From positions 1-52,569 of IMG/VR virus record IMGVR_UViG_3300007513_000054: a DNA stretch of 52,569 bases. One strand, written 5' to 3'. Origin of the DNA: a virus. Shown here piece after piece: positions 25,321 to 45,566 of the stretch. Each line of letters begins with the position of its first letter. Positions within the stretch are counted from its first letter, which is position 1. The position numbers and the translations under genes are program-made. The notes under the pieces were generated by a model that was not told the DNA's origin, did not search any database, and saw only the letters and a list, made by a program, of their open reading frames with translations.

Positions 25321-25410
25321 CTGATACCATGCGATACTACTCGATACCATGCGATACTACTCGATACCATGCGATACTACTCGATACCATGCGATACTAC
25401 TCGATACCAG
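25321..25410 (+). repeat. 20-bp tandem repeats (4.5 copies)
   Basis: Four copies of TCGATACCATGCGATACTAC (the first starting CTGATACC) plus a partial fifth. Each unit is two half-sites beginning CGATAC, so CGATAC recurs every 10 bp, one helical turn. This is iteron-like; there are no spacers as in a CRISPR array. Confidence 0.9.
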
Positions 25411-25620: not shown

Positions 25621-25757
25621 TAATAAATATTATTTTTCATACACACCAGGGCCCGATTCCCAATATTGGCGAGCGATACATCTGAATCAAGATATAACTT
25701 TTTGTATACAAAATTTTTTTTCCACAAAATTATTTTGTGTCAACATCAAAAAAAAGC

Positions 25758-25784
25758 TAAAGTTTCCCCCACAATTGTCGATAA
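25758..25784 (+). promoter_or_regulatory. sigma-28-type promoter copy 1 (no gene follows)
   Basis: TAAAGTTT, 11 bases, GTCGATAA. It is followed by TTATAAGTAGAGGCGC, and the whole segment is duplicated 99 bases later. No open gene follows. Confidence 0.75.
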
Positions 25785-25856
25785 TTATAAGTAGAGGCGC
25801 AAGTAATATCAAAACACAAATGCAAAAATTAATTTCAAAAAAAGTGAAAATAAAGC

Positions 25857-25883
25857 TAAAGTTTTCCGCATTTGTGTCGATAA
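25857..25883 (+). promoter_or_regulatory. sigma-28-type promoter copy 2 (no gene follows)
   Basis: TAAAGTTT at 25857-25864 and GTCGATAA at 25876-25883, spacer 11; the tail is duplicated from copy 1. Confidence 0.75.
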
Positions 25884-25986
25884 TTATAAGTAGAGGCGCA
25901 AGTAATATCGAAACACAAACCAAACATTCTAGCAGAAAAATCAAAAAATCTGAAAAATTTATTTTCCGGATTATTGAAAATAAAGC

Positions 25987-26013
25987 TAAAGTTTTTGGAT
26001 ATTGTGTCGATAA
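25987..26013 (+). promoter_or_regulatory. sigma-28-type promoter copy 3
   Basis: TAAAGTTT-N11-GTCGATAA, then TTATAATATAGCAAGT. The -10 ends 29 bases before the ATG of the next gene. Confidence 0.85.
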
Positions 26014-26042
26014 TTATAATATAGCAAGTAATTGGAGATAGT

Positions 26043-26387
26043 ATGACATTAGACCAACTTTTATTGAAAAACAGCATAGACTTGGAAACGTTAGCAAAAA
26101 ATTTAGATCTTGATAAAATTTTCGGAGAATCTAACGAGTTGGAACGTGATGATAATTCGGAGACTGATTTAGACTTGACAGATTTTGAGATAGTAGAAAC
26201 CCAACATGGGTTCGACGTTTCGTTTACTGATTTTGATGGAAAAATTTTTCTTGCATTTTTTAAGACTATCAAAGCAAGTGAAAATTGGCTCGATATGATG
26301 ATGGGAACGTCGGACTTTGTATCTGATAATACTTTGACAGAATATCAGAGTAATCTATCAGGAAAACATTTTTACAATAATAGCTAA
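26043..26387 (+). CDS. hypothetical acidic protein
   Basis: A 114-residue acidic protein with TTGGAG upstream, the first gene after the control region and directly served by sigma-28-type promoter copy 3. FEIVETQHGFDVSFTDFDGK suggests a beta hairpin; the N-terminal 45 residues are helical and acidic. Its TAA stop lies in an AGCTAAA sequence just before the next promoter copy. Possibly an early host-takeover protein. Confidence 0.65.
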   Translation: MTLDQLLLKNSIDLETLAKNLDLDKIFGESNELERDDNSETDLDLTDFEIVETQHGFDVSFTDFDGKIFLAFFKTIKASENWLDMMMGTSDFVSDNTLTEYQSNLSGKHFYNNS

Positions 26388-26395
26388 AAAAAAGC

Positions 26396-26422
26396 TAAAG
26401 TTTTCGGCTTAACTGTCGATAA
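26396..26422 (+). promoter_or_regulatory. sigma-28-type promoter copy 4
   Basis: TAAAGTTT-N11-GTCGATAA followed by TTATAATATAGCAA; 32 bases before the next start. Confidence 0.85.
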
Positions 26423-26454
26423 TTATAATATAGCAACTAACACTGGAGAATATC

Positions 26455-26658
26455 TTGAAACTTTCAGAATTGATACAAAAATTACAAACTGCGGAACGTG
26501 AACATGGGAACGTGGAAGTAGAGTTTAACATAGCCGCCGATCCGGAGTCTACTATGCAAATAGGGGACGCCTGTGCAAGTGATTTAATTAAGATTGAATC
26601 ATTTGATTGGAAAGGATCTACGATATTAAACTTGGATTTAGGATTTTCAAAATTCTAA
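26455..26658 (+). CDS. small phage protein
   Basis: A 67-residue protein with a TTG start and GGAGA upstream. The start MKLSELIQKLQTAEREHGNV, followed by EVEFNIA, follows a pattern common in small uncharacterised phage proteins that organise as a helix then beta strands. It has its own sigma-28-type promoter. Confidence 0.6.
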   Translation: MKLSELIQKLQTAEREHGNVEVEFNIAADPESTMQIGDACASDLIKIESFDWKGSTILNLDLGFSKF

Positions 26659-26677
26659 AATAATTTGAAAATAAAGC

Positions 26678-26704
26678 TAAAGTTTTCGGCAATTGTGTCG
26701 ATAA
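26678..26704 (+). promoter_or_regulatory. sigma-28-type promoter copy 5
   Basis: TAAAGTTT-N11-GTCGATAA, then TTATAATATAGCAAGTGATT; 43 bases before the next ATG. Confidence 0.85.
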
Positions 26705-26747
26705 TTATAATATAGCAAGTGATTAGAAAATTGGAGAGAATTACAAC

Positions 26748-27185
26748 ATGCCATTAAAAGTTAGCGTAAGTAGAGTTGGATCGAAAAATGCTGGTAAACC
26801 TTACTCATATCTCACCGGCGTAGAACGTAAAGTTGGATACTGTAAAGGTGGACGATTTAACACGCCTGAGTTGGACCAAGCTAGGGTAACATTTAACGGT
26901 GCCAAAAATCGTAATAAAGATATTACACCGTTAACTGAGGATCGGGAAGCCATCTTTGATATGTATTATCAAGCATATATGACAAGTTTGGAGACTGGTA
27001 TTACACACCGTGTGGCAATGGCTAAGCCTAAAAAAGCTGGCGGATTGTGGACCTTGTCTAATCTTAAAATTGTCAAGAAAGGTGAGTCGGTCAACCCTAA
27101 GCCGAAAAATGCTAAAAAAGCTGAAAAACAGTTGGAACTATTTGAGGAACCAAAAGTAGATGATTCCCAATTGGAGTTATTTTAA
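26748..27185 (+). CDS. HNH-like protein with two clamp-binding motifs
   Basis: A 145-residue basic protein. The segment GITHRVAMAKPKKAGGLW followed by TLSNLKIVKKGESVNPKPK resembles the second half of an HNH nuclease (H...GG...NL...N..K), although no zinc cysteine pairs are seen. The end carries QLELF twice (residues 128-132 and 141-145), matching the bacterial sliding-clamp-binding pentapeptide QLxLF. It may therefore be tethered to the host beta clamp. GGAGAG precedes the ATG. Confidence 0.65.
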   Translation: MPLKVSVSRVGSKNAGKPYSYLTGVERKVGYCKGGRFNTPELDQARVTFNGAKNRNKDITPLTEDREAIFDMYYQAYMTSLETGITHRVAMAKPKKAGGLWTLSNLKIVKKGESVNPKPKNAKKAEKQLELFEEPKVDDSQLELF

Positions 27186-27392
27186 TTGAACAAAATTAAA
27201 TTTAGATCAAAATCAGGAAGTCAGGAAGTAACCTTATGTTATGCAAACCGTTCCGCTGTTTATAAACGTAGGGCGGAACGTACCAAGGAACATTATCTAA
27301 CGGATATGGATTTCCATAGATTGATTGATAATTTTTGGAATAATAAACGTTGGGATAAGGTTAGAGTTTTTAACAGTGGAGACGTAAGTTAA
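27186..27392 (+). CDS. small basic protein
   Basis: A 68-residue basic protein starting at TTG directly after the previous stop. SAVYKRRAERTKEHYLTDMD is strongly helical. It is probably co-transcribed from promoter copy 5. Unknown function. Confidence 0.55.
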   Translation: MNKIKFRSKSGSQEVTLCYANRSAVYKRRAERTKEHYLTDMDFHRLIDNFWNNKRWDKVRVFNSGDVS

Positions 27393-27568
27393 TGATAAGA
27401 TTGATAACTGGAGGATTCCTAGTATTAGGGTCCGTTGGTGGAATGGAGATGGGATCCATGGGACCGGGAATGGCGATAATGTTTGCCGTTCCCGGACTGA
27501 TGGCAATTTGGTGGGCCTTGTTAGATGGTACTATTCACAGATTAGCCGGAGTAAAAAAATTATGGTAG
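27392..27568 (+). CDS. 58-residue membrane protein
   Basis: Starts on the stop of the previous gene (TAATG). It is glycine/methionine-rich with hydrophobic segments around residues 3-18 and 27-44 (GPGMAIMFAVPGLMAIWW), probably a two-span protein. Unknown. Confidence 0.5.
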   Translation: MIRLITGGFLVLGSVGGMEMGSMGPGMAIMFAVPGLMAIWWALLDGTIHRLAGVKKLW

Positions 27569-27648
27569 AAATGATGATGTTAATTGGAATAGGAATAATT
27601 ATTTTTGGTGGACCGATTGTATTATTTTCACCGAAAAATAAATCGTAA
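27562..27648 (+). CDS. 28-residue membrane microprotein
   Basis: MVEMMMLIGIGIIIFGGPIV then LFSPKNKS: one span and a basic end, overlapping the previous gene by seven bases. It lies just upstream of promoter copy 6. Confidence 0.4.
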   Translation: MVEMMMLIGIGIIIFGGPIVLFSPKNKS

Positions 27649-27655
27649 TTAGTGC

Positions 27656-27682
27656 TAAAGTTTTCCGGGTTTGTGTCGATAA
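27656..27682 (+). promoter_or_regulatory. sigma-28-type promoter copy 6
   Basis: TAAAGTTT-N11-GTCGATAA, then TAGTAATATAGCAA; 32 bases before the next ATG. Confidence 0.85.
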
Positions 27683-27714
27683 TAGTAATATAGCAACAAA
27701 AAGGGATTAGTGAA

Positions 27715-28395
27715 ATGACAATTCAGAAAAGTAAACATTGGCCATTACAATTCCCAAACGTTAACCAACAGGAAAAGGAAATGCCAGAAAATACGGAACG
27801 GGATAAAATGATTGATGGTTATTATAACAATTTGACCCATACCAAAGGTGATGATGGTGAGAGAAGGGTTGAGGAATTTTGTGCTAAAAATAATTGTCTA
27901 ATCTCAAGACCAACTAACCAATCTTTTCCATATGATTTAATGGTAGATTATATGGCCGAATATACCTTAAAGGTCCAAGTTAAACAAGTTACATTGTTAG
28001 GGACTGGTTTGGTAAATGTTCCATTAACAAATAGAATCAATGCCGGATCGAAAAGAAAAGGAATTGGTAATTCCCATAGCTATTTGAATACCGTTGACGT
28101 TATGGCTGTGGTTGTTACCGATGATAATGGCGAGGCAGTATATGATGAACCATTTTTTATATCCTGTAATACCTTAACAAATGATTTGGACGTTCCAACT
28201 ACTCAGGGAACTAAAATGTTCCAAACTGATAAGTATGTTCCTAGCTCAACGAAAGCCCCTTTAATCAATCAATATACTTGGGCTAACCTGATTAACAGAC
28301 TTAAGGAAAAGGATAAGGAATTAGAAAATGAATACTCCGAATTAAAGGATATTTTCAATTCCTTTACCGCTTTCCTAAATCGAAAATATAGCTAA
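27715..28395 (+). CDS. PD-(D/E)XK endonuclease-like protein
   Basis: A 226-residue protein. KGDDGERRVEEFCAKNNCLI supplies the N-terminal glutamate helix, FPYDLMVDY the central aspartate, and YTLKVQVKQV the (D/E)xK-type strand (VQVK). This is the layout of the PDDEXK family found in plasmids and phages. The C-terminus (from about 190) is coiled coil. It may degrade host DNA or act in recombination. The stop TAA lies inside the next promoter element (GCTAAAG). Confidence 0.75.
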   Translation: MTIQKSKHWPLQFPNVNQQEKEMPENTERDKMIDGYYNNLTHTKGDDGERRVEEFCAKNNCLISRPTNQSFPYDLMVDYMAEYTLKVQVKQVTLLGTGLVNVPLTNRINAGSKRKGIGNSHSYLNTVDVMAVVVTDDNGEAVYDEPFFISCNTLTNDLDVPTTQGTKMFQTDKYVPSSTKAPLINQYTWANLINRLKEKDKELENEYSELKDIFNSFTAFLNRKYS

Positions 28396-28419
28396 AGTTT
28401 TCGGCTTAACTGTCGATAA
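28393..28419 (+). promoter_or_regulatory. sigma-28-type promoter copy 7
   Basis: TAAAGTTT-N11-GTCGATAA with TTATAATATAGCAAGTGATT; the first three bases are the previous gene's stop codon. The next ATG used here is 29 bases after the -10. Confidence 0.85.
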
Positions 28420-28448
28420 TTATAATATAGCAAGTGATTAAAAAGAGT

Positions 28449-28673
28449 ATGAATTTTACAAACGGACAAATGGTCAAGTCCTATTCTGACCAAGTTTATC
28501 GGATAGTTGGAATAGATAGCAATATCTATAAAGTAGAGCATGGAATTGATGGTGAAATTAGTCATGGATGTGATGATGATTTTTTACCACTTAAATGGAA
28601 TGATCCGGTCTATGATAGTTGGTTAACCGCCAAATTTAATTACAATTACAATTTAGTATATGGAAAACATTAG
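28449..28673 (+). CDS. small hypothetical protein
   Basis: A 74-residue acidic protein. ATG 28449 is chosen over GTG 28434 because the other sigma-28-driven genes start mostly about 23-43 bases after the -10. SDQVYRIVGIDSNIYKVEHG looks like an SH3-like beta structure. It heads a long run of small genes probably read from promoter copy 7. Confidence 0.6.
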   Translation: MNFTNGQMVKSYSDQVYRIVGIDSNIYKVEHGIDGEISHGCDDDFLPLKWNDPVYDSWLTAKFNYNYNLVYGKH

Positions 28674-28680
28674 GAGAGAA

Positions 28681-28866
28681 ATGAAAATGCAAGAACTACT
28701 GGACCTACTCGAAGGAATTACGACTACTGTGGACGACCTGGCGACACAAATACCCAATGCGGATGATGCCCATGAGCAGATACAACTGGCTGAAATGATA
28801 GAACGGGAAATGTCTGATGCCCGATCTATTCTGCGGGTTATGAATCTTATTCAAAAACAAAGTTAG
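28681..28866 (+). CDS. small acidic helical protein
   Basis: A 61-residue protein with AGGAG upstream; ATG 28681 or 28687 may be the start. It is entirely helical and acidic (MQELLDLLEGITTTVDDLAT). No family is recognised. Confidence 0.6.
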   Translation: MKMQELLDLLEGITTTVDDLATQIPNADDAHEQIQLAEMIEREMSDARSILRVMNLIQKQS

Positions 28867-28879
28867 GGGAGATTATAAT

Positions 28880-29284
28880 ATGGGTTATTTAAGACGGATT
28901 AAGAATCGGGAACGTAAAATTGAAAAGGCTAAAAATCGTAAACGTTATAACACACCGAAGGAAACTTCAGTAAGATCACGTTTGAGAAAAGCCGCTGTGG
29001 CTAAACTAAAGCAAGAACGGGAAGCCCTAGCCCAACGTGAAGCTGATATAGCGGCACAGGAAATGGCTGATTATAAAGAGGTCAATGACCAAGTTAGGGA
29101 AAATCCAGAAGCCTATGAAAATTTTCTGGAAACTGAAGGAATTGAAGTTCCTCAGATATATACCGATCACCGTGGAGAGGAAGAGGAAAATGACACCGAT
29201 ACAAAAGATAACGGATCCGATGCGGATGGTGAGGACGTTGGGTCCACATCCGAGCCAGATGATAGTCAAGGCGGTGGAGAATAG
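28880..29284 (+). CDS. bipolar charged protein
   Basis: A 134-residue protein. Residues 1-55 are strongly basic (RRIKNRERKIEKAKNRKR), residues 60-85 helical, and the last 40 residues almost purely acidic and disordered (EEEENDTDTKDNGSDADGED). Such a basic head and acidic tail suggests a nucleic-acid binding protein or a histone/polymerase mimic. GGGGAG upstream supports the start. Confidence 0.65.
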   Translation: MGYLRRIKNRERKIEKAKNRKRYNTPKETSVRSRLRKAAVAKLKQEREALAQREADIAAQEMADYKEVNDQVRENPEAYENFLETEGIEVPQIYTDHRGEEEENDTDTKDNGSDADGEDVGSTSEPDDSQGGGE

Positions 29285-29426
29285 TTTAGCTATAGGTGGC
29301 AGTTGGATCACCTCTGTTAAACAGGTGATGGATGATAATGATCGAACATGGACACCTGGATGTGGTGACATTTTAGATCAAGATATTATGGTTATAGTAT
29401 TAAGAACATTAAGGAGAGAATTTTAA
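29259..29426 (+). CDS. small hypothetical protein
   Basis: A 55-residue protein starting inside the end of the previous gene. MIVKAVENSLAIGGSWITSV and DIMVIVLRTLRREF are its main features. The frame is open further upstream, but that part only shadows the neighbour. The stop overlaps the next ATG (TAATG). Confidence 0.45.
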   Translation: MIVKAVENSLAIGGSWITSVKQVMDDNDRTWTPGCGDILDQDIMVIVLRTLRREF

Positions 29427-30172
29427 TGGGACTACCGAATGGTAACCTAGCTAAACTTACAATTAAAGATTGTAAAGAAAATGTTGGACAATTCAGTGAT
29501 CCAAGTAAAATGCCTGGATTGTCTTGGGGAATTCCAATTGATTATTGTATCACTGGCTCCCAACTTATTGACGTTGAAGGTAGCACCTGTCATGGGTGCT
29601 ATGCCGACAGTGGTGCATACATTTGGGAAAATACTCAAAATGCTTATGAACGTCGGCACCAAGCCTACATTAAAGATCCATTACTGTGGGTTCAATCCAT
29701 GATCCATTTTTTCCATGAAAGCACAGTGATGGCTAAGGAACCATTCTTTAGATTTTTTGATAGTGGTGACATTCAATCACTAAAAATGCTAATGGATATT
29801 GCCACTGTGGCATATGCTTGTACCCATATAAATTTCTGGGTTCCTACTAAAGAATATCAGATATATCAGGATTATCTAAAGGTGGCAGAGCCTCCAAATA
29901 ATATGATAATTCGGGTATCGGCACCCATGAAAGATACAGTCCTTAAATCTGATAAATATGAATGGTCTAGTACCACTTATACTACGGAAAAGTTTGATAA
30001 AATGAAGGACGAAGAGGATTGGTTTTTCTGTCCGGCATCTAGTCAAAAAAATTCTTGTGGTGATTGTAGGGCATGTTGGGATCCGGATGTACCGGTAGTG
30101 GTATATAAGTATCATGGTGCCAAAAAGTATAATACCTCTAGGGAATTATTACAAATTGAGAGGGCCGCTTAA
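29426..30172 (+). CDS. phage GP88-family protein
   Basis: A 248-residue protein. CHGCYADSGAYIWENTQNAY with ERRHQAYI matches the phage Gp88-like family, whose cysteine-rich pattern (ST-CxxC, and late CGDCRACW) suggests a metal or Fe-S site. The family has no settled function. FFRFFDSGDIQSLKMLMDIA is the central conserved part. It starts on the previous stop with AAGGAGAG upstream. Confidence 0.75.
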   Translation: MGLPNGNLAKLTIKDCKENVGQFSDPSKMPGLSWGIPIDYCITGSQLIDVEGSTCHGCYADSGAYIWENTQNAYERRHQAYIKDPLLWVQSMIHFFHESTVMAKEPFFRFFDSGDIQSLKMLMDIATVAYACTHINFWVPTKEYQIYQDYLKVAEPPNNMIIRVSAPMKDTVLKSDKYEWSSTTYTTEKFDKMKDEEDWFFCPASSQKNSCGDCRACWDPDVPVVVYKYHGAKKYNTSRELLQIERAA

Positions 30173-30396
30173 TGACAGTTAAGGATTTACGAAAGTATTT
30201 GGATGGTTACAAACCAAATGATGAAATTGTAGCTTTATGGTGGGATAAGGATTCCTACTTTGAGTATAATTTTACAGATGAACAGTGGAAAACGATAGTT
30301 GATAAGACTGAGGAATATAGTTTTGATGGTATTCATGAAATTATAACCTCAGAAATAGTAGATATTGCAACGGATTTAGGATATAAGGCAGAATAA
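30172..30396 (+). CDS. small phage protein
   Basis: A 74-residue acidic protein starting MTVKDLRKYLDGYKPNDEIV, a layout frequent in small phage proteins (helix followed by a strand with a tryptophan). It starts on the previous stop and ends on the next start. Unknown function. Confidence 0.6.
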   Translation: MTVKDLRKYLDGYKPNDEIVALWWDKDSYFEYNFTDEQWKTIVDKTEEYSFDGIHEIITSEIVDIATDLGYKAE

Positions 30397-30497
30397 TGGA
30401 TCCAGTGATAGTAGTTTGTATAGCGGTTTGGATAGTATCGTCAGTAGCGGCAGTGGTTGTAATTGTTAAGAATGGACATGATACAGGAGGAAAATAA
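30396..30497 (+). CDS. 33-residue membrane microprotein
   Basis: MDPVIVVCIAVWIVSSVAAV and onward is one membrane span with a short basic tail. It starts on the stop of the previous gene (TAATG). Confidence 0.45.
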   Translation: MDPVIVVCIAVWIVSSVAAVVVIVKNGHDTGGK

Positions 30498-30498
30498 G

Positions 30499-30714
30499 AT
30501 GGGAATCGTACCTACACAAAAAAGATCGGAATTGGAATTAGAATTAGCTAAAATCTTTGGGAAAAGTAGACCGGCTACGATTATGGCTGGCTCCTGTATG
30601 ACCTGCGATACTAATGATATTGTGGAAGCAGATTTTAAGGACGATATATCAATTAAAGAATATCAAATTTCTGGCCTCTGCCAATCATGCCAGGATGATG
30701 TGTTTGGTATTTAA
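30499..30714 (+). CDS. zinc-ribbon phage protein
   Basis: A 71-residue protein. AGGAGG eight bases upstream fixes ATG 30499. Two CxxC pairs, CMTCDTND and CQSCQDDVFG, 31 residues apart with EYQISGLCQSC between, follow a zinc-ribbon pattern recalled from other phages. Unknown function, perhaps RNA polymerase or nucleic-acid binding. Confidence 0.7.
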   Translation: MGIVPTQKRSELELELAKIFGKSRPATIMAGSCMTCDTNDIVEADFKDDISIKEYQISGLCQSCQDDVFGI

Positions 30715-30733
30715 TTAAGATAGGAGGTATAAG

Positions 30734-30907
30734 GTGAAATTTGTACGAAAGAAAACATTTGACCAAAAAATAGATGAGGCTCCTTTGCCTACTGGTCTTA
30801 CATTGAAACAGAGGGGTAAAAAACGTAAACCGATTAAGAAATTAACAACATGGGAAAAAATTGTGAAGTGGATTAGCGAACATTTTCTAGGTGGAGGGAG
30901 AGGATAG
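30734..30907 (+). CDS. small basic protein
   Basis: A 57-residue protein with a GTG start set by TAGGAGG. It is very basic in the middle (KQRGKKRKPIKKL) with an amphipathic end. Possible nucleic-acid binding. Confidence 0.55.
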   Translation: MKFVRKKTFDQKIDEAPLPTGLTLKQRGKKRKPIKKLTTWEKIVKWISEHFLGGGRG

Positions 30908-30909
30908 TA

Positions 30910-31059
30910 ATGGATATAGCACAAATGATAATTATGGGTATTATTATAGTTACGACAGGTGTAATGGCGTATACTATAGGACATTTTAATGGTTTTATGC
31001 AAGGTATGAATAAATGTCAAAAGATTTATTCACCTAATGCCAATTCAACTGATGCTTAG
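30910..31059 (+). CDS. 49-residue membrane microprotein
   Basis: MDIAQMIIMGIIIVTTGVMA continuing to AYTIGHFNGFMQG forms one span; GGAGAGG lies upstream. Unknown. Confidence 0.5.
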   Translation: MDIAQMIIMGIIIVTTGVMAYTIGHFNGFMQGMNKCQKIYSPNANSTDA

Positions 31060-31231
31060 ATACTTTTTAGGAGGTTCCATTGCGTTACTTGCGTTTATTT
31101 TTAACGTGCTGGCTAGTTTGGGTAATATCCCGGCTCTTTTCCTTGGTATATGGGGCTTGTATATTATGACAGGACCCATAGTTGATGGTAGCTTATGGAA
31201 ACAAATGAAAAGGATTTATTATGAAAGTTAA
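31052..31231 (+). CDS. two-span membrane protein
   Basis: A 59-residue protein (an upstream ATG at 31037 is also possible). Hydrophobic segments LGGSIALLAFIFNVLASL and PALFLGIWGLYIMTGPIV are linked by a short turn. It overlaps neighbours at both ends. Confidence 0.5.
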   Translation: MLRYFLGGSIALLAFIFNVLASLGNIPALFLGIWGLYIMTGPIVDGSLWKQMKRIYYES

Positions 31232-31400
31232 TATCCCATATCAATACTCAGTAGCAGAAATTTCAGAACAGATTCAGGAAGATATTCTATCCTATTTTGA
31301 ATCATTAAACGAAAATATCGAATACTACACGGTATATGAAAAATTTAAGGACGATTTATGTCAAATCGTAGTTGATAATATGGAAAAATTAGATGATTAA
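31221..31400 (+). CDS. small acidic protein
   Basis: A 59-residue protein with AAAGGA upstream (MKVNIPYQYSVAEISEQIQE...). It is acidic and helical, and overlaps the genes on both sides. Unknown. Confidence 0.5.
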   Translation: MKVNIPYQYSVAEISEQIQEDILSYFESLNENIEYYTVYEKFKDDLCQIVVDNMEKLDD

Positions 31401-31590
31401 CACATATGGTGTCCAAACAATGGATATATATGATTATTATCGTGCCTATATGGAAGTACAGGCAGCAAAACGTGTACAAAGGGTTGAGGCAGTTACAGAT
31501 TCTATGAAAAATGCCTTAGATCCGAGAAAAAATAAAAGTCATCCACTAGCAGACAAAAAGTGGGGGAGTAATTTAGATGTCCGAGCTTAA
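31393..31590 (+). CDS. small hypothetical protein
   Basis: A 65-residue protein, possibly starting at ATG 31420. The end is basic (ALDPRKNKSHPLADKKWG). Unknown function. Confidence 0.5.
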   Translation: MINTYGVQTMDIYDYYRAYMEVQAAKRVQRVEAVTDSMKNALDPRKNKSHPLADKKWGSNLDVRA

Positions 31591-31810
31591 AAAATATGCG
31601 GTAAGAATAATTTGGCCTTGTTATATTACAGTAAGTGCCGATACTGAAAGTCAAGCAATTGCTCAAGGCATGGAAATGGCTGATGATTTGTTTGAAACTT
31701 CCACTATTAGGCCGTACGTTGATTCAGTAACGGAAATCGAAAAAAAGTTTCAAAATTTAACTAAAGTTTCCGATGAAACTGTCGATAATAATAATATAAG
31801 CGGAGATTAA
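31577..31810 (+). CDS. small protein ending in a translated promoter element
   Basis: A 77-residue protein with GGGGGAG upstream. The N-terminal part KYAVRIIWPCYITVSADTES is beta-rich. The C-terminal codons coincide with sigma-28-type promoter copy 9 and read KVSDETVDNNNIS, so the promoter is encoded within the gene end. The same frame of another copy is found in the gene at 37968. Confidence 0.6.
   Translation: MSELKKYAVRIIWPCYITVSADTESQAIAQGMEMADDLFETSTIRPYVDSVTEIEKKFQNLTKVSDETVDNNNISGD
31762..31788 (+). promoter_or_regulatory. sigma-28-type promoter copy 9 (inside a gene end)
   Basis: TAAAGTTT-N11-GTCGATAA, then TAATAATATAAG; 23 bases before the next ATG. Confidence 0.75.
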
Positions 31811-31811
31811 G

Positions 31812-32039
31812 ATGTTTGATTTAGCAATTCCAACTGAAAGGGAAATTGATCTTGATAAATTACGATTAGAATATGTGGAAGCTCTACTTTCTAATATGGA
31901 TTATAAAGATTTATTGGAAACATTTAGATCTACCATGTTTGAACACCTAAAAACTTTGTCCGAAGATGAATTATACGAAGAAATTGAAAAATGGGGCTTT
32001 GGATATATTTTTGACCAACAGGAGATTATAGAATGTTAA
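31812..32039 (+). CDS. small acidic protein
   Basis: A 75-residue acidic helical protein with CGGAG upstream. It lies directly after promoter copy 9 and overlaps the next gene by seven bases. Its last part (LYEEIEKWGFGYIFDQQEII) resembles the end of its downstream neighbours (DLYEIHFDEP). It may be a DNA mimic or inhibitor; unknown. Confidence 0.55.
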   Translation: MFDLAIPTEREIDLDKLRLEYVEALLSNMDYKDLLETFRSTMFEHLKTLSEDELYEEIEKWGFGYIFDQQEIIEC

Positions 32040-32239
32040 CTACAGATGTCCATGATAACAGTACCAAATACCAAATTATGCGGGATATGTTATGTGATGC
32101 CGAATATGAAAATATACAGTGGAGTGATATTTATGACATTCTAATGGATGGTTGTCAAGGCTATAGAAATATGTCGGATGAAGAAATTGAAGATTTATAT
32201 GAAATCCATTTTGATGAACCTTTTGACTCGGAGAAATAA
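32033..32239 (+). CDS. small acidic protein
   Basis: A 68-residue, strongly acidic protein (MSDEEIEDLYEIHFDEPFD near the end). It overlaps the previous gene by seven bases. Several acidic proteins of this size sit together here. Unknown function. Confidence 0.55.
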   Translation: MLTTDVHDNSTKYQIMRDMLCDAEYENIQWSDIYDILMDGCQGYRNMSDEEIEDLYEIHFDEPFDSEK

Positions 32240-32240
32240 A

Positions 32241-32477
32241 ATGTCCGATTTAATTGATTCCCTAACTATGGTTTCCTCTAGAATTTCAGAGATTTTAGAG
32301 GAATTTACTACTGAATTAAGTGGTACCAATTCCCAAAAACTAGAAGAAATGTTGGAAGATCTAATTGACATCGTTACTGATTTGGATCAAATTGCAGAAT
32401 TGGATGAAAATCCGCCAAAAATAGATATAAATGAAATAATCTATGATTTAGATGAGGAGGATAACTTATGGGATTGA
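32241..32477 (+). CDS. small acidic coiled-coil protein
   Basis: A 78-residue protein; CGGAG seven bases upstream fixes ATG 32241 within a longer open frame. It is acidic and helical throughout (SRISEILEEFTTELSGTNSQ). It overlaps the next gene by ten bases. Unknown. Confidence 0.55.
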   Translation: MSDLIDSLTMVSSRISEILEEFTTELSGTNSQKLEEMLEDLIDIVTDLDQIAELDENPPKIDINEIIYDLDEEDNLWD

Positions 32478-32626
32478 TATTTGATGCCATAAAAGGTTTT
32501 ATTGCAGTATTGGGAATGATCTGTGGTACTTTGTGTGTTTCTTTGATAGGATTATATTCTATTTTTTCTCCTGAATCTGCTGAAAAGTTATTTCAACGAC
32601 TACAGGAATGGGCAAATGGGGAATGA
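32468..32626 (+). CDS. 52-residue membrane protein
   Basis: Hydrophobic core KGFIAVLGMICGTLCVSLIG and LYSIF, then a charged tail. AGGAGG upstream. Probably single-span; unknown. Confidence 0.5.
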   Translation: MGLIFDAIKGFIAVLGMICGTLCVSLIGLYSIFSPESAEKLFQRLQEWANGE

Positions 32627-32823
32627 AATTTATACAATGGTTGTTATTCCATATAACCTTTTTAACAGGATTATTTTTTCTTTATTCTGTTAGGTTTTTT
32701 TTGGATTTAGTATTTTTATGGGCCAATATCATTGGATCACATGATTTAATTCAATGGTGTTCTGATGCTGAAGATTCCATAATAGCTTGGTTAGATGAAT
32801 TGGATGATGATGATGAAAACTAA
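32623..32823 (+). CDS. membrane protein with acidic tail
   Basis: A 66-residue protein beginning on ATGA shared with the previous stop. Two hydrophobic segments (IQWLLFHITFLTGLFFLYSV, LDLVFLWANIIG) precede an acidic tail ending LDELDDDDEN. Unknown. Confidence 0.5.
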   Translation: MKFIQWLLFHITFLTGLFFLYSVRFFLDLVFLWANIIGSHDLIQWCSDAEDSIIAWLDELDDDDEN

Positions 32824-32986
32824 GAAAAGGAATAAGATTATTAGGAGAATTACCAAAGTATCCCATGCGATCGGGGTTAATCTTTGGGATGTTATCCCTA
32901 GTGATGTGTGGGGTGGTGAATTAACCAAAGTAGTAGAGAAGTTACAGGAAAAAAAGACGATTGGATTTAAGTATCCACGAAATTAG
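32813..32986 (+). CDS. small basic protein
   Basis: About 57 residues; several ATG codons between 32795 and 32813 could start it. A basic head (KTKKRNKIIRRITKVSHAIG) is followed by NLWDVIPSDVWGGEL and a basic end. It is the last gene before a sigma-70-type promoter. Confidence 0.5.
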   Translation: MKTKKRNKIIRRITKVSHAIGVNLWDVIPSDVWGGELTKVVEKLQEKKTIGFKYPRN

Positions 32987-32988
32987 CC

Positions 32989-33018
32989 TTGACAGGGGCT
33001 GGTTAAAAATGTTATAAT
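32989..33018 (+). promoter_or_regulatory. sigma-70-type promoter (TTGACA-N18-TATAAT)
   Basis: TTGACA at 32989-32994 and TATAAT at 33013-33018, preceded by TAGCC as in sister promoters. It is 31 bases before the next ATG. Confidence 0.85.
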
Positions 33019-33049
33019 ATAGATGTCCTACGCTGGAGGAGATAGTATA

Positions 33050-33418
33050 ATGGTAGATGTTAAGATTGGTATTGCTAAATACTGTTTTAGTCAAATTTAT
33101 GAATTAGCTACTGAGGCTGTTGATTTATGTGAATTAGGTAATGATGCAGATACATATTCTATAATGAAGTACGTGGATAAGATTGATTCTTATACAGAAA
33201 CTATAGATTCCTTAGTGAGTGATATAGTTAATGATAATGATTCAACTGGTGAAACAGTTATAAATCAGGAAAATGTAGATATTATTATAAATGAAGATAA
33301 AAAAACCTCAAAACAGGCTTATGTTGATGAATTAAATAAGACCTATGATGATTTTATAGAATATAGTCGTCAGGAAGATATGCGTAAAACTTTTAATCAA
33401 GGTGAGGGTGATGGCTAG
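33050..33418 (+). CDS. acidic hypothetical protein
   Basis: A 122-residue acidic helical protein. GGAGGAG eight bases upstream fixes ATG 33050. YSIMKYVDKIDSYTETIDSL is a long amphipathic region, followed by a disordered middle and a charged end. It overlaps the next gene by eight bases. Unknown. Confidence 0.6.
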   Translation: MVDVKIGIAKYCFSQIYELATEAVDLCELGNDADTYSIMKYVDKIDSYTETIDSLVSDIVNDNDSTGETVINQENVDIIINEDKKTSKQAYVDELNKTYDDFIEYSRQEDMRKTFNQGEGDG

Positions 33419-33608
33419 AATTTATAAACAAAGTTTATTGGTGGAGTTTAGGAATACTGAACCTTTTATTTATGACTTGGAATCTGAACAACCAATTACA
33501 ATGGATAGAATAGTTGAGTATTTCGTTAAGGTTGAGGATTGGAATGAGGAACGTGATAGCCTAACCTTATTAGACGCTTCAACTGTAATTGATTTAGATA
33601 AAAAATAA
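33411..33608 (+). CDS. small acidic protein
   Basis: A 65-residue protein (MARIYKQSLLVEFRNTEPFI...). The ATG at 33411 follows GGTGAGGGTG; a longer start at 33402 is less likely. Its stop lies four bases before promoter copy 8. Unknown. Confidence 0.55.
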   Translation: MARIYKQSLLVEFRNTEPFIYDLESEQPITMDRIVEYFVKVEDWNEERDSLTLLDASTVIDLDKK

Positions 33609-33611
33609 AGC

Positions 33612-33638
33612 TAAAGTTTTCGGCATAACTGTCGATAA
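33612..33638 (+). promoter_or_regulatory. sigma-28-type promoter copy 8
   Basis: TAAAGTTT-N11-GTCGATAA then TTATAATATAGCAA; 35 bases before the CobS-like ATPase gene. Confidence 0.85.
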
Positions 33639-33673
33639 TTATAATATAGCAACTAAATGGAGAATAATTAAGA

Positions 33674-34900
33674 ATGAAATCTTTGAATCACAATCATATG
33701 ACCTTTGTTAAATGTGCTTATAGTCATTATGATAAAGATGAATTAACCAAAGCTGAATTGCAAGTTATTACAGATACTTATGATGTTAAAAAACCGGGTT
33801 GGATTCAAAGACCTGAATTTAGAACATCTGCTGGTTTGTATAAATTACCTATCGATGGTAAATTGCCAGAAGCATTAAAAGCGAAAGAAGGTGTCGAAGG
33901 AATTAATGGAGATTTTCCATTAGAAACTTATAATAACATTGTACCAATGAAAAAAGGACAAATGCCAGTTACTACAAAAATAGTTCCACAAGTAGTTGAA
34001 GAATCTCAACAACAGGCAGAAATAGTGGAAATACCAAAAGAGGATGTAAATTTAGTTCCTGATAAATCTGAGAAGTATGTTCCATTTGGAAATTCTAAAG
34101 ATATTCTTAGTATAATCAAATCGGAGATATTTTATCCTGTTTTTATTACAGGTCTTTCTGGTAACGGTAAAACGTTGATGGTTGATCAGGCTTGTGCCAG
34201 ATCAAATAGAGAATTGGTTCGTGCTAACATTACTATTGAAACGGATGAAGATGATTTGCTTGGTGGTTTTAGATTGATTAACGGCAATACTGTCTGGCAC
34301 AATGGTCCAGTAGTAGATGCTATGGAGAGAGGTGCAATACTTCTCCTAGATGAAATTGATTTAGCATCAAATAAAATTATGTGTTTGCAACCCGTATTGG
34401 AGGGTTCAGGTGTCTATCTTAAAAAAGTTAATCGGTGGGTTAAACCCAAACCTGGTTTCAATGTTATTGCTACTGCTAACACAAAGGGTAAAGGGTCGGA
34501 GCATGGTCAATTCATTGGAACTAACATTCTTAATGAGGCGTTTCTTGAAAGATTCGCTATTACGTTAGAGCAGTCCTATCCTACAGCCGTTACTGAAAAG
34601 AAAATTTTAAGATTAGAATTGAAGGAGTTGGAATATGATGATAAGTTTTTGGATCGGCTTGTTAATTGGGCTGACATTGTTCGTAAAACTTATGATGATG
34701 GTGGTCTTGATGAAGTAATTTCAACTCGCCGCCTTGTTCATATTGTTAATGCGTTTAAGATATTTGGAAAGGAAGATAAGGCCATCAATGTTTGTATCTC
34801 AAGATTTGATGATGATACGAAGGCCGCATTGAGTGATCTTTATTCCAAACTTGAAGAAAAGCCAGTTGAAGAGGAACAGACTGAAGAAGTACCATTTTGA
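33674..34900 (+). CDS. cobS: CobS/MoxR-like AAA+ ATPase
   Basis: A 408-residue AAA+ protein. Walker A is GLSGNGKT near residue 159 and Walker B is ILLLDEID near residue 222. NVIATANTKGKGSEHGQFIG is the sensor-1 region typical of the CobS/MoxR group. The N-terminal 110 residues are specific. The family partners with VWA proteins to remodel substrates; in bacteria CobS acts in cobalt insertion. In T4-like phages it is a core gene, perhaps structural or assembly-related. It is followed by a VWA protein and driven by a sigma-28-type promoter. Confidence 0.88.
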   Translation: MKSLNHNHMTFVKCAYSHYDKDELTKAELQVITDTYDVKKPGWIQRPEFRTSAGLYKLPIDGKLPEALKAKEGVEGINGDFPLETYNNIVPMKKGQMPVTTKIVPQVVEESQQQAEIVEIPKEDVNLVPDKSEKYVPFGNSKDILSIIKSEIFYPVFITGLSGNGKTLMVDQACARSNRELVRANITIETDEDDLLGGFRLINGNTVWHNGPVVDAMERGAILLLDEIDLASNKIMCLQPVLEGSGVYLKKVNRWVKPKPGFNVIATANTKGKGSEHGQFIGTNILNEAFLERFAITLEQSYPTAVTEKKILRLELKELEYDDKFLDRLVNWADIVRKTYDDGGLDEVISTRRLVHIVNAFKIFGKEDKAINVCISRFDDDTKAALSDLYSKLEEKPVEEEQTEEVPF

Positions 34901-34984
34901 GATCTGGACAAAAAAATGTTTCGGGCGAAACAAAAGCAAGATATATCAATGGGCCAAGGAATGAACCTTCCATAAGGAGATAAA

Positions 34985-37492
34985 GTGAAGTATACTCAAG
35001 AGCAAAAACAAGTATTGGCCAGATTGTTGGCTACTGAAAACATTACAGTGGAACATAGAAATGTCTCCACAGCAATGTTTGATGTTCAAAATCGTACATT
35101 ATTACTCCCTACTTGGGACTCTATGCCTGAGGATGTTTATGATATGCTAGTAGGGCATGAAGTTGGGCATGCCTTGTTTACTCCGACAGATATGGATGAT
35201 CTACAAACTAAGATCGATGGTATTGATTCGGATCATCCAGGCCGTGTCAAGACCTTGTTTAATATAGTGGAAGACGCCCGGATTGAAAAGAAAATGAAAC
35301 GGAAATTTCCTGGTTTAAGGAGAGACTTTCATAATGGCTATAAAGATTTTTTGCAGAAAGGATTGTTTGGTGATCCTGAAAGCCTTAATAGGAAATTGAT
35401 TGATAAGATCAATATACATTTTAAGTGTGGTTCTTTAGGACCACAATATGAGTTTAGTCCAGATGAACAGCAGTTGATTGATAGAATAGAAAAGGTGGAG
35501 ACATTTGAAGATGTGGCTGGTATAGTTAAAGATTTGTATGAGTTTGTATTGGGTGATGTACCTGATATGGCAGATGATATGTTAATGCAACAGCAAATGG
35601 AAGAAAGAGGTGATTGTAATGGCTGGGAAGAGGAGACACAGAAGTCTAATTCGGGATCTGGAACGGATTCTGCTGATGGTGACGAAAAAGATACCACCGA
35701 TTCGGATGGGACTGATGGTGACAGAGAACGTGATGGAGATGATACTAGAGAGTCTACACAATCTGAGAAATCAGGAAGTGGCAAACAAGAGATGGAGGAT
35801 GAAAAGGGAAAGGAATCTAAAAAATACAACTCCAAAGTCGGAGGTAGAGGAAATAGAAATAACTTAGAAGACCAATTTAAGTCTGATACACAAGATGCTA
35901 TGGATGATTTTATAGAATCTAGTTATGATCCGACTATGTTACCAGATATGGTTGTTAATATCCCTAAGGTGGATTCTAATAGGTATATAGAGAATTATTC
36001 ATCCGTTTTATCGAATCTGGATGAGTATTATCACGAAAAGATTTATACGGATAAATGGTTTGTTAGAGCGTTGATGGATAATGACATTTCAAAAGAACAA
36101 TATAATCAGGCTTTGGTTGATGGTTATAAATCTTGGAAAAAGTCTGTTAATTCTTCTGTCAATTTTATGGCTAAAGAATTTGAAATGAAAAAATCTGCCG
36201 ATCAGTATGCTAGGGCATCTGTTAACAAAACAGGTACTTTGAATACTAATAAGATTCACCAATACCGATATAATGAAGATATATTTCGTAGGATTACAAT
36301 TTTACCTGATGGTAAAGATCATGCGATGATACTTGTAATTGATTGGTCTGGATCTATGGATGCTAGTATTAGTAACACTATTCATCAAGCTATGACATTG
36401 GTATTATTTTGTAAAAAAGTTAATATACCATTTGAAGTTTATTGTTTTAGTGATAATCCAGGGGCGTATCGTGATGTTATAAAGCCATTACAGCAGAAAG
36501 ATTATGAGGTAGATGATTTATACGTGGACTATTTTGTTATGCGTAATATGTTTTCTTCCCGAATGACTACCAAAGAATTGGAAAGATCAATGACATATTT
36601 TTATGCTATGTCTAATGGATTTAGTTATGGAGGATTAGAGAGTGCTTATGGTATAGAATTGAATTATGGATATGCAAGACATTTAGTGCCTACTGACTGG
36701 TCTTTGTGTGGTACACCTCTTAATGATTCATTGATTATAATGAAAGATTATTTGGAGAGGTATCGAAAGGATAATAGAAGTACCATTATCAATGTGATTC
36801 TTTTGACAGATGGTGATTCAGCAACTTCTATTCTCAAAATTACTGAGGATGATGAAATTGCTCATAATGCTTCTGATATTGGATATTCTGGGTATGTACA
36901 GTATGATGATTCGGATGAGACAAAGGAATATTATAGAGAAAAACTATATGTTGATGCTAAGATTGCAAATTTTTGTCATTCTAATGTCAATGTGAGGTTG
37001 AAAGATCCATATTCTAATACCACTGAATATATTTCTCCTAGTTCTGATCGTCAAGGTGTTTATAGAACTAGCTGGTATAGCACGGAGCATAATAATATGA
37101 CTAATTCTTTAATTAGATCATTAGGAAATATACCAAGAGTTAATGTTGTTGGATTTTTCGTTGCGAATGGTAAATATAATGTTAGAAATGCTGTTTCAAC
37201 TCATTTCTTTTCAAGGCGTGACCATGGGCATGTTGAAAAATATGATGAAATGATGAAGGATTTTAGAAAGTCTAAATACTTAGTTAATGAGGAACATGCT
37301 GGATATGATATATTCTTTGTTCTATCAGGTGGGTCTGATTTAGAATTGGAAACAGGTGGTTTAGATGATGATTTGAAAGGAGAATCAAAAAGACGATTGA
37401 CCACAGCATTTAAGAAACATAGTAAAGCCAAATTACAGAGTCGTGTATTTTTAACTAAATTTATTGATTATATTTCAAAGGAGAATTATTAA
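34985..37492 (+). CDS. CobT-like VWA protein with HExxH-like site
   Basis: An 835-residue protein starting at GTG with AAGGAG upstream. VGHEVGHALFTP (residues 56-67) is a zincin-type HExxH motif; residues about 215-290 are a low-complexity acidic/serine/glycine linker; MILVIDWSGSMDAS near residue 446 starts a VWA domain with an intact MIDAS (DxSxS). The pairing of an AAA+ ATPase and a VWA protein mirrors CobS-CobT and MoxR-VWA systems. It probably acts as a remodelling complex or peptidase, not necessarily in cobalamin synthesis. The 84-base gap before it holds only a short hairpin (TGTTTCG-GG-CGAAACA). Confidence 0.85.
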   Translation: MKYTQEQKQVLARLLATENITVEHRNVSTAMFDVQNRTLLLPTWDSMPEDVYDMLVGHEVGHALFTPTDMDDLQTKIDGIDSDHPGRVKTLFNIVEDARIEKKMKRKFPGLRRDFHNGYKDFLQKGLFGDPESLNRKLIDKINIHFKCGSLGPQYEFSPDEQQLIDRIEKVETFEDVAGIVKDLYEFVLGDVPDMADDMLMQQQMEERGDCNGWEEETQKSNSGSGTDSADGDEKDTTDSDGTDGDRERDGDDTRESTQSEKSGSGKQEMEDEKGKESKKYNSKVGGRGNRNNLEDQFKSDTQDAMDDFIESSYDPTMLPDMVVNIPKVDSNRYIENYSSVLSNLDEYYHEKIYTDKWFVRALMDNDISKEQYNQALVDGYKSWKKSVNSSVNFMAKEFEMKKSADQYARASVNKTGTLNTNKIHQYRYNEDIFRRITILPDGKDHAMILVIDWSGSMDASISNTIHQAMTLVLFCKKVNIPFEVYCFSDNPGAYRDVIKPLQQKDYEVDDLYVDYFVMRNMFSSRMTTKELERSMTYFYAMSNGFSYGGLESAYGIELNYGYARHLVPTDWSLCGTPLNDSLIIMKDYLERYRKDNRSTIINVILLTDGDSATSILKITEDDEIAHNASDIGYSGYVQYDDSDETKEYYREKLYVDAKIANFCHSNVNVRLKDPYSNTTEYISPSSDRQGVYRTSWYSTEHNNMTNSLIRSLGNIPRVNVVGFFVANGKYNVRNAVSTHFFSRRDHGHVEKYDEMMKDFRKSKYLVNEEHAGYDIFFVLSGGSDLELETGGLDDDLKGESKRRLTTAFKKHSKAKLQSRVFLTKFIDYISKENY

Positions 37493-37689
37493 TGTCATAT
37501 GTATGTGATGTGGAGGCGGTTCCTGAACGTGAAGGATATGAAGAAGTTACAGGAACAATGATGGAAATTCATAAGTGTGATGATTGTGGTTTTCATATTG
37601 GTTTTGATGTGTCGTATTTGGAGCAAGTAGAAGAAATTGTAATGGAATGTCCGAGTTGTGCTGAGGTAATTTATACTTATGATGAATAA
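37492..37689 (+). CDS. zinc-ribbon protein
   Basis: A 65-residue protein starting on the previous stop (TAATG). KCDDCGFHIGF and MECPSCAEVIY form a CxxC-x24-CxxC zinc ribbon. Acidic overall. Unknown, perhaps a transcription or RNA-binding accessory. Confidence 0.65.
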   Translation: MSYVCDVEAVPEREGYEEVTGTMMEIHKCDDCGFHIGFDVSYLEQVEEIVMECPSCAEVIYTYDE

Positions 37690-37702
37690 GGAGGTAGATA
37701 TT

Positions 37703-37978
37703 TTGAGTGCTACGTATGCAGAATTGGTTAGATTGTTGGAAAATAGTATTTGTAATATAGAATTTATAAAGGCAGATGGAAGTCAAAGAAAGATGACTTG
37801 CACATTGAATCCATTTACAGAGGAGATGGAAGTGTTAGCAGATGATTATAATAATTCAACTAAAGAAAGTATTACAGTATGGGATTTAGAGAAGAAAGAT
37901 TGGAGATCTTTTCGTAAAGATAGATTGACAAAATGTACTGTTACCACTTCAATATTGGAGGTAGCAAGTGGAGCTTGA
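37703..37978 (+). CDS. SH3-like small phage protein (DUF2693-like)
   Basis: A 91-residue protein; a TTG start with AAGGAGG eight bases upstream looks better than ATG codons at 37679/37682 that lie inside the previous gene. The core LENSICNIEFIKADGSQRKM then TCTLNP resembles the DUF2693 small beta-barrel family of phages. Its end overlaps the next gene by 11 bases. Confidence 0.6.
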   Translation: MSATYAELVRLLENSICNIEFIKADGSQRKMTCTLNPFTEEMEVLADDYNNSTKESITVWDLEKKDWRSFRKDRLTKCTVTTSILEVASGA

Positions 37979-38552
37979 AGAAATTTATAAACGAGGTCAA
38001 AAGGCTACTTTAGAGAATGAACCTTTAATTTCTGGTATTGATACGTCTTATGCTCGTTCAATGTATTATGTGGATCTTTGGAGAGATTGGTACGCCAATC
38101 TTTCCGATGTTCTTCGGCATGATTATATGTTTCAAGAACTTCCAGAGAAATTTCGTACTACTAATAATACTTTATGTCAAAGTGCATTGGAGTATTTTGA
38201 TGAAGATTTTGCTAGAAAGAGATGGAATATAATTGATCCTCCTTCTTTAGAAGAGGTAAAGAAGGATAATGAGAAAAATAATTTTACAAAACCTGTAAAA
38301 AAAGTTAAAGTTTCTAAGAAAGCTGTCGATAATAATAGTATAACAGCCGCACAAGCGTTTGCTGAAATAAATAGTCTAGTTGATGAATTGGAATATCATG
38401 AGAAGAAGTATTATGAGGATAATGATCCTGAGATTTCTGATTATGATTTTGATATGAAGTTAAAGAGATTGGAAGAATTAGAAAAACAATTTCCGGAATT
38501 CAAACAAAGTGAATCACCTACTGAACGAGTAGGGAGGGGGGATTTGAAATGA
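37968..38552 (+). CDS. fusion protein ending in a NAD+ DNA ligase Ia-like domain
   Basis: A 194-residue protein with a GTG start and TTGGAGG upstream. Residues 1-110 are of unknown family. Residues about 130-194 match the N-terminal Ia (NMN-binding) domain of LigA: ELEYHEKKYYEDNDPEISDY, then LEELEKQFPEF and SPTERVG. No adenylation or other ligase domain follows. The linker between the two parts is encoded by sigma-28-type promoter copy 10, suggesting that two genes were fused through the promoter. Whether it binds NAD+/NMN or acts as a ligase antagonist is unknown. Confidence 0.75.
   Translation: MELEEIYKRGQKATLENEPLISGIDTSYARSMYYVDLWRDWYANLSDVLRHDYMFQELPEKFRTTNNTLCQSALEYFDEDFARKRWNIIDPPSLEEVKKDNEKNNFTKPVKKVKVSKKAVDNNSITAAQAFAEINSLVDELEYHEKKYYEDNDPEISDYDFDMKLKRLEELEKQFPEFKQSESPTERVGRGDLK
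38306..38332 (+). promoter_or_regulatory. sigma-28-type promoter copy 10 (inside a gene)
   Basis: TAAAGTTT-N11-GTCGATAA, then TAATAGTATAAC, in the middle of the fusion gene, just before its LigA-like domain. No good internal start codon follows closely. Confidence 0.6.
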
Positions 38553-42343: not shown

Positions 42344-42379
42344 TACATAATTTTTTAAATTATGAAAGCGGAGAATTGT

Positions 42380-43210
42380 ATGTTATCAGGAATTACACAA
42401 AAAACTTTAGGACGTTATCAAGAAGCCACAAAAATGGTTGAAGAAACGATGTCAAGGCTGGCATCTGGAACGGCTGATATTGGATCGGCTGATAAAATTA
42501 AAATGGGTAGAATTAATAATACTATTCATACGTTACAGACAGCACATAAAGTAGTTAAACAGAATCAAGATTTGTTGGAGTCTGCTCTTGTAGGAACAGA
42601 TTCTATTACTGCTGTTGTTCTTAAAATGAAAGAGGTTGCTACTGAGGCACAAGACGATCAATTAACAGCATCCCAACGTTTAGCTTTGATGGATGAGTAT
42701 AATGAATTGTCTGCTGAAATTGATTATGTTGCACAGAATACAGAATATGATGGAACAGAATTGATTGATGGTTCTTTTGGAACTAAAAGTTTTGTTATTG
42801 ATGGTGTTAATACTGATCAGACAGTTAGTGTTGAATTAGGTGATCTTACGTTAGAAGGATTAAAGCTTGGTGCTTATACTGATGATAATAATCAGGCAGT
42901 AGCTGTAGCTAAATTGGATACTGTTGCTGATGCTGAAGATGCAGTAACAAGATTGGAAACTGCTCTTGCATCATTAGAGGGTGAGAGATCTAATCAGTTG
43001 GCTAAAATTGAAAGATTCGATTTTACTATTTCTCATATGGAACGTATGATTGGTATTAATGAAGAATCTATTGCCACTATTAATGATTTTGATGAAGCAT
43101 CAGAGATGGCTAAATTGACTAGTTATAGAATTGAACAACAAACAGCTATTGCATTAATGGCTCAAGCACAACAACTTTCTGCTTCTGTTTTACAGTTGTT
43201 GGGCGGTTAA
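42380..43210 (+). CDS. flagellin-like protein
   Basis: A 276-residue protein; GGAG seven bases upstream sets ATG 42380. The N-terminal half follows the flagellin D0/D1 pattern: ETMSRLASGTADIGSADKIK, QNQDLLESALVGTDSITAVV, LKMKEVATEAQDD, AEIDYVAQNTEYDGTELIDG. The C-terminal helix (DEASEMAKLTSYRIEQQTAI then ALMAQAQQLSASVLQLLGG) matches the flagellin C-terminal D0. The central domain is very short. In a phage it may form a fibre, a flagellum-interacting part or a decoy subunit. The coding region looks intact. Confidence 0.82.
   Translation: MLSGITQKTLGRYQEATKMVEETMSRLASGTADIGSADKIKMGRINNTIHTLQTAHKVVKQNQDLLESALVGTDSITAVVLKMKEVATEAQDDQLTASQRLALMDEYNELSAEIDYVAQNTEYDGTELIDGSFGTKSFVIDGVNTDQTVSVELGDLTLEGLKLGAYTDDNNQAVAVAKLDTVADAEDAVTRLETALASLEGERSNQLAKIERFDFTISHMERMIGINEESIATINDFDEASEMAKLTSYRIEQQTAIALMAQAQQLSASVLQLLGG

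Positions 43211-45491: not shown

Positions 45492-45501
<10 letters not shown>
44791..45501 (+). CDS. RecB/MGME1-like PD-(D/E)XK exonuclease
   Basis: A 236-residue nuclease. GSALHDVAEMYLNN carries the GxxxH-like helix, AGRVDCIGEF the aspartate, SIIDFKTARR the D-x-K motif, and QATGYSLMWEEM the Q-xxx-Y motif of the RecB/Cas4/MGME1 group. It follows the protease with no gap. Its last ten bases lie inside the tRNA gene. Likely role: recombination or processing of DNA ends. Confidence 0.85.

Positions 45502-45566
<65 letters not shown>

Follow-up and report, generated by a model that had tools for sequence, protein, structure and literature searches.

Ten candidate sigma-28 (FliA)-type promoters clustered in part of the genome of an environmental T4-like phage

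Introduction

Phage genes can be placed under an alternative sigma factor of the host, as in YuA-group Pseudomonas phages, whose promoters are of the sigma-54 type; these phages are not T4-like and differ from the phage described here in sigma class and promoter architecture. Phage T4 is of the same phage family as ours and resembles it in gp55, which relatives of our phage encode, and in strong sigma-70 promoters, but no early, middle or late promoter class of T4 has the -35/-10 pair reported below. We know of no FliA-type phage regulon that has been described, and non-exhaustive searches of the open-access literature and of databases found neither a paper on one nor a cultured phage with one, in agreement with the remark in an initial annotation of this DNA that no T4-like phage with such a regulon was known to have been described.

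The class 3 flagellar promoters of bacteria, recognised by E-sigma28 (FliA) at genes such as flgM, fliC, tar and motA, are like the elements reported here in both boxes, in the 11-nt spacer (N11) and in matrix score, and the -10 variant found here, GTCGATAA, also occurs at E. coli holA and in many flgM promoters; binding of E. coli FliA to GTCGATAA variants is recorded at holA, rluF and hslU (PMC4183435). The present elements differ in that they would drive phage genes, lie ten within 13 kb and have an AT-rich TTATAATATAGCAA block behind the box. In the Bdellovibrio attack-phase regulon, FliA-type promoters (consensus TTAAG-N16-CCGATA) control a global programme that reaches far past the flagellar genes (PMC3627812); that regulon is cellular, whereas the set described here belongs to a phage. 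Phages with sporulation sigma factors engage the developmental sigma system of the host by carrying a sigma gene (PMC9429907), whereas our phage carries promoters, and FliA is absent from the main text of that study. TldR/FliCP prophages, which are temperate, combine a phage-borne flagellin with RNA-guided repression and interfere with flagellar expression, and the TldR-associated FliCP has been termed the first known prophage-encoded flagellin (PMC13418256); our phage is instead T4-like, with a flagellin gene that lacks a FliA site.

The phage fragment and its ten elements

The DNA analysed, here called the window, is the IMG/VR virus record IMGVR_UViG_3300007513_000054, 52,569 bp of 33% GC from an environmental sample. 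It is an incomplete T4-like phage genome (a 52.6-kb fragment; cultured T4-like relatives have ~140-190 kb), with a primase, a class II-type RNR, a gp46-type exonuclease, gp59, gp32 SSB and a CobS/CobT pair, which upheld its initial description as T4-like; judged by the gp32, gp59, primase and CobS/CobT homologues found, the phage is of the Pantevenvirales type. Individual proteins have their closest cultured relatives in cyanophages and Pelagibacter phages (~50-65% identity), the latter (T4-like) being closest for the CobS-like ATPase. A twin contig from another sample (IMGVR 3300007760_000054, G001) is 99.93% identical to the window over 34 kb, and one fragment from sample 3300032820 has 77% nucleotide identity to it. 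Clues to the host diverged, with CobS, RNR, gp32 and AmtB each nearest to different distant phages; a cobT search for host clues retrieved only the same phage, and a genome scan for the extended promoter as a route to the host gave no match.

A motif search found exactly ten copies of TAAAGTTT-N11-GTCGATAA in the window, between 25758 and 38332, all on the + strand and with 0 mismatches, at the coordinates and with the unvarying N11 spacer given by the initial annotation. All ten (10/10) follow the gene strand, on which nearly all genes of the window lie (+), and the independent twin contig has the same ten sites. The elements and the genes behind them are as follows.

25758..25784, + strand: FliA-type promoter 1, exact match; first half of a 99-bp duplication
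25857..25883, + strand: FliA-type promoter 2, exact match; second half of the 99-bp duplication
25987..26013, + strand: FliA-type promoter 3, exact match; 29 nt before ORF 26043-26387
26043..26387, + strand: ORF, 114 aa; no match in family search
26396..26422, + strand: FliA-type promoter 4, exact match; 32 nt before ORF 26455-26658
26455..26658, + strand: ORF, 67 aa; TTG start with GGAG upstream
26678..26704, + strand: FliA-type promoter 5, exact match; 43 nt before ORF 26748-27185
26748..27185, + strand: ORF, 145 aa; no match in family search
27656..27682, + strand: FliA-type promoter 6, exact match; 32 nt before ORF 27715-28395
27715..28395, + strand: ORF, 226 aa; PDDEXK_5-type nuclease domain
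28393..28419, + strand: FliA-type promoter 7, exact match; before ORF 28434-28673
28434..28673, + strand: ORF, 79 aa; GTG start 14 nt after promoter 7
31762..31788, + strand: FliA-type promoter 8, exact match; 23 nt before ORF 31812-32039
31812..32039, + strand: ORF, 75 aa
33612..33638, + strand: FliA-type promoter 9, exact match; 35 nt before the gene of the CobS-like AAA+ ATPase
33674..34900, + strand: CobS-like AAA+ ATPase (PHROG 249, 403 bits)
34985..37492, + strand: CobT-like protein/peptidase (PHROG 459, 612 bits), in line after cobS
37968..38552, + strand: ORF with a C-terminal NAD-ligase N-terminal domain (domain search)
38306..38332, + strand: FliA-type promoter 10, exact match; within ORF 37968-38552, at the start of the LigA-like domain

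Seven copies (25987, 26396, 26678, 27656, 28393, 31762 and 33612) are followed, after 23-43 nt, by a start codon that has a GGAG-like ribosome-binding site; the distances agree with those first proposed, and that for 28393 is counted to its ATG. This in-frame ATG (28449) is a more likely start of ORF 28434-28673 than the GTG. The tenth element is intragenic, and more than half of E. coli FliA sites are intragenic as well (PMC4183435). The ORF that holds it appears to join an N-terminal part of unknown nature to the first domain of a NAD-dependent ligase, with the element at the junction.

Across the ten copies the box columns are invariant (16/16), against 6/43 spacer and flank columns (Fisher p 7e-10). 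The next-best match in the window has 3 mismatches, half-decayed copies are absent, and dinucleotide shuffles gave 1.46 matches at <=3 mismatches (maximum 5) where ten exact copies were observed. With a -35 TAAAGTTT and a -10 GCCGATAA at 11-nt spacing as the FliA-class consensus, all ten sites agree at 15/16 positions, the figure originally reported. Position 2 of the -10 is T in all ten, where C is commonest in FliA sites, and this constant T could point to a sigma factor with a shifted preference.

The flank first given for these elements needs correcting for two of them: at sites 25758 and 25857 the downstream flank is TTATAAGTAGAGGCGCAAG, not TTATAATATAGCAA. These two sites are the halves of a 99-bp tandem duplication (25748-25940) stacked before site 25987, and the shared flanks suggest that some of the conservation may stem from recent duplication of promoter cassettes. 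Clustering, and the placing of two sites within a tandem duplication, might also be expected of DNA repeats with a non-promoter role in origin function, packaging or recombination, but the uniform orientation with the genes, the position mostly before ribosome-binding sites and the match to a known promoter class make this explanation extremely improbable. Separately, the gap directly upstream of the block of elements holds 4.3 perfect tandem copies of the 20-bp unit GATACCATGCGATACTACTC (25323-25409).

Comparison with bacterial FliA sites

A scoring matrix was derived, with no use of the window, from 25 E. coli FliA sites that have good ChIP-seq support (PMC4183435, Table 2). All ten sites scored 23.6 bits and took ranks 1-10 in the window, the next site reaching 17.0; most of the E. 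coli FliA sites score below 23.6 bits. On random sequence of the same composition the maxima averaged 14.7 bits, with 1/30 reaching 23.9.

In a blind scan of 84,980 bacterial and archaeal species genomes for the window's own GCTAAAGTTT-N11-GTCGATAA, 101 stretches matched, of which 80 were listed. Among the matches listed, the 67 downstream ORFs included 27 FlgM, 7 flagellin and 4 MCP, and also FlaG, FliD and FliS; the sequence thus stands mainly before flgM, flagellin and chemotaxis genes and is therefore a genuine sigma-28-class promoter sequence. A Bdellovibrio-like predator as host, an idea taken from PMC3627812, was unsupported, with no such title among the 80 of 101 matches listed. The exact form TAAAGTTT-N11-GNCGATAA, with any base at -10 position 2, was present in 39/369 sampled gammaproteobacterial genomes at <=3 copies each, and ten in 13 kb of phage DNA are therefore extraordinary.

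FliA-type sites in other phages

An IMG/VR scan with the canonical N11 element returned at least 120 stretches, with many contigs multi-copy, and the wrong-spacer N14 control returned 25, all single; counts of contigs are biased because the motif served to find them, a bias that affects the spacing control and the further sites within each contig much less. Several unrelated uncultured phages have 4-28 FliA-type sites each, at a spacing of 11, in a few cases 12 and almost never otherwise, mostly intergenic and shortly before ORFs. The carriers examined include a 153-kb PolA/DnaB phage (G002) with 28 sites, a 30-kb contig (G041) with 12, most of them in a row of small genes, and a 163-kb phage (G003). 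Scans of 50 kb each gave no site in T4 (none >18 bits) and two in Salmonella phage Chi. No site >20 bits was found in 80 loci around T4-like cobS relatives (871 kb), which led us to reject the idea that T4-like marine phages commonly have the element.

Because the independent E. coli matrix, the spacer specificity in unrelated phages, the wrong-spacer control and the genes behind the element in bacteria agree, the ten elements are very probably sigma-28 (FliA-class) promoters, and the class originally assigned to them is supported. Chance or AT-richness as their origin was ruled out by the shuffles, the random-sequence maxima and the wrong-spacer controls. The same two-part consensus, its spacing and its association with flagellar genes in bacteria tell against sigma-70 or gp55 promoters joined to an unrelated activator box, as in the middle (MotA) or late promoters of T4. 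Such an arrangement might be looked for in a T4-like phage with TATAAT nearby and relatives that carry gp55, but the T4 late (gp55) motif TATAAATA, sought without a -35, was absent at all ten sites, and no conserved MotA box stood ~12 nt upstream of TATAAT, the spacer being the variable part (judged by eye). T4 gp55 or MotA-type promoters were rejected on these grounds, and a non-FliA origin of this kind is very improbable.

An exact TATAAT (TTATAAT in several), with no matching -35, directly follows the box in half of the sites; in others this region reads TATAAG, AGTAAT, AATAAT or AATAGT, and GTCGATAA never varies among the ten. In other phages (G042, which is 3300037245_004243, L323-L329; G050, G063, G026 and G083) the N11 spacer of the FliA element was seen to contain TTGACA, making hybrid promoters, and G042 has about ten repeats of a cassette AAAATAAAGC-T(A/C)AAGTTT-..TTGACA..-GCCGATAA-CAGTTATAGTAT; in G042, G050 and G063 the TTGACA suggests overlapping sigma-70 and sigma-28 promoters. 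Dual promoters of this sort in the window, with host sigma-70 on the TATAAT and sigma-28 on the box, would leave the genes on in both motile and non-motile cells. The TTATAAT copies and the hybrids of G042, G050 and G063 speak for them, but TATAAT varies between copies while GTCGATAA is constant, and among the + strand matches listed at 9 of 12 positions in a scan for TTGACA-N16-18-TATAAT, none drew its TATAAT from one of the ten elements; dual promoters are improbable here. Elsewhere on the + strand the window has six perfect TTGACA-N17/18-TATAAT promoters (984, 11430, 32989, 38765, 41798 and 46708), mostly with AGCC upstream and AT downstream, which form a second, separate class common to relatives.

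The sigma factor that may recognise the elements

For the sigma-28-class elements, host FliA is somewhat the likelier reader, and for the window it is favoured over a phage FliA; the initial annotation had allowed for either. Searches of the 52.6-kb window and its twin contig for sigma genes (FliA, sigma-70 region 2 or gp55) gave no match. As the window is a fragment of a larger genome, a phage sigma gene may therefore lie in the remainder, and a FliA-like sigma encoded there could read the same promoters as a private middle or late class to which motility is irrelevant. The invariant GTCGATAA, suggestive of a single dedicated reader, fits such a factor, and 3300045994_000147 (G007), another phage that has FliA-type sites, has a real FliA-family sigma:

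L376 1432-2151 (contig 25.5-26.2 kb): FliA-family sigma of 3300045994_000147, adjoining ThyX and MazG

It is a full sigma of this family (TIGR02479, 232 bits, above cut-off, with Pfam regions 2 and 4) whose closest solved structures are FliA, and it is surrounded by phage genes (portal, primase-helicase, ThyX and MazG); its contig has 10 FliA-type sites >14 bits against 0.4 expected. On the other side, 22/24 phage records with FliA-type sites gave no match in a FliA-family search, the 137- and 163-kb records included, and the 153-kb G002 had sub-threshold fragments only. In relatives of this phage gp55 is encoded: gp43 and gp55 occur on contigs that share its promoter motif, and the sample 3300032820 fragments with its AGCCTTGACA-N14-ATGTTATAATA motif encode T4 gp55. 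A phage-encoded reader for the window is thus rather unlikely. As most of the searched records with FliA-type sites gave no FliA-family match and G007 has such a gene, both routes, by host FliA and by phage FliA, are plausible in nature. No FlgM homologue was above cut-off among the 24 records.

A flagellin homologue in the window

The window also encodes a homologue of flagellin.

42362..43210, + strand: flagellin homologue, 282 aa; Flagellin_N and Flagellin_C both above Pfam cut-offs

Its best PDB matches are solved flagellins (2e-22), and it is present in both the window and the twin contig; strong matches in cultured phages were essentially none at the search sensitivity used. No FliA site precedes the gene, and the closest upstream promoter is the sigma-70-type one at 41798. 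An AlphaFold model made with no alignment (pLDDT 49) was too weak for use. The presence of the homologue is still consistent with a phage of flagellated bacteria.

Proposed mechanism and meaning

The class, spacing, orientation and position before genes of the ten elements are read from the sequence; as to their activity, start sites, sigma factor and link to motility, we infer the following. RNA polymerase with a FliA-family sigma would bind TAAAGTTT as the -35 (region 4) and GTCGATAA as the -10 (region 2), the AT-rich TTATAATA behind the box would be melted, and transcription would start close to AGCAA, ~9-11 nt beyond the box, giving short leaders that run directly into the ribosome-binding site. 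The driven set would comprise the block of small genes, the PD-(D/E)XK nuclease-like gene and the cobS-cobT pair, with the remaining fragment served by the strong TTGACA-N17/18-TATAAT promoters; the 'early' timing suggested for the driven genes, from their small size and position, is a guess. The most likely reader would be host FliA, released once FlgM is exported from motile cells, and since host FliA is free in motile cells, the FliA-driven part of the programme would therefore run best in swimming hosts. Part of phage expression is in this way probably tied to host motility.

If true, this regulon would be the first in a phage to be described as resting on the flagellar sigma factor, and infection would be linked to motility, with swimming cells as the productive hosts or with host FliA diverted from flagellin and chemotaxis genes. 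FliA-type phage promoters seem recurrent in several unrelated uncultured phages. From the many FliA promoters, the presence of a FliA-family sigma in at least one of these phages and the flagellin of the window phage, there is about an even chance that large phages of motile bacteria, unrelated to one another, have repeatedly put part of their genes under the flagellar sigma, so that development is gated by motility or the sigma factor is commandeered. Such promoters also offer a sequence handle for predicting phages of flagellated hosts.

Further features of the fragment

A tRNA-Thr(UGU) at 45492-45566 (+) is the sole tRNA of the fragment, and an Rfam search of the window gave nothing beyond it. 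At 49105-52518 (-) lies a 1137-aa ORF with no family match, part of which is conserved at ~73-81% aa in a related contig (L386). The gene at 15612-16874 (+) encodes an ammonium transporter (PF00909, 399 bits) and is likely an auxiliary metabolic gene.
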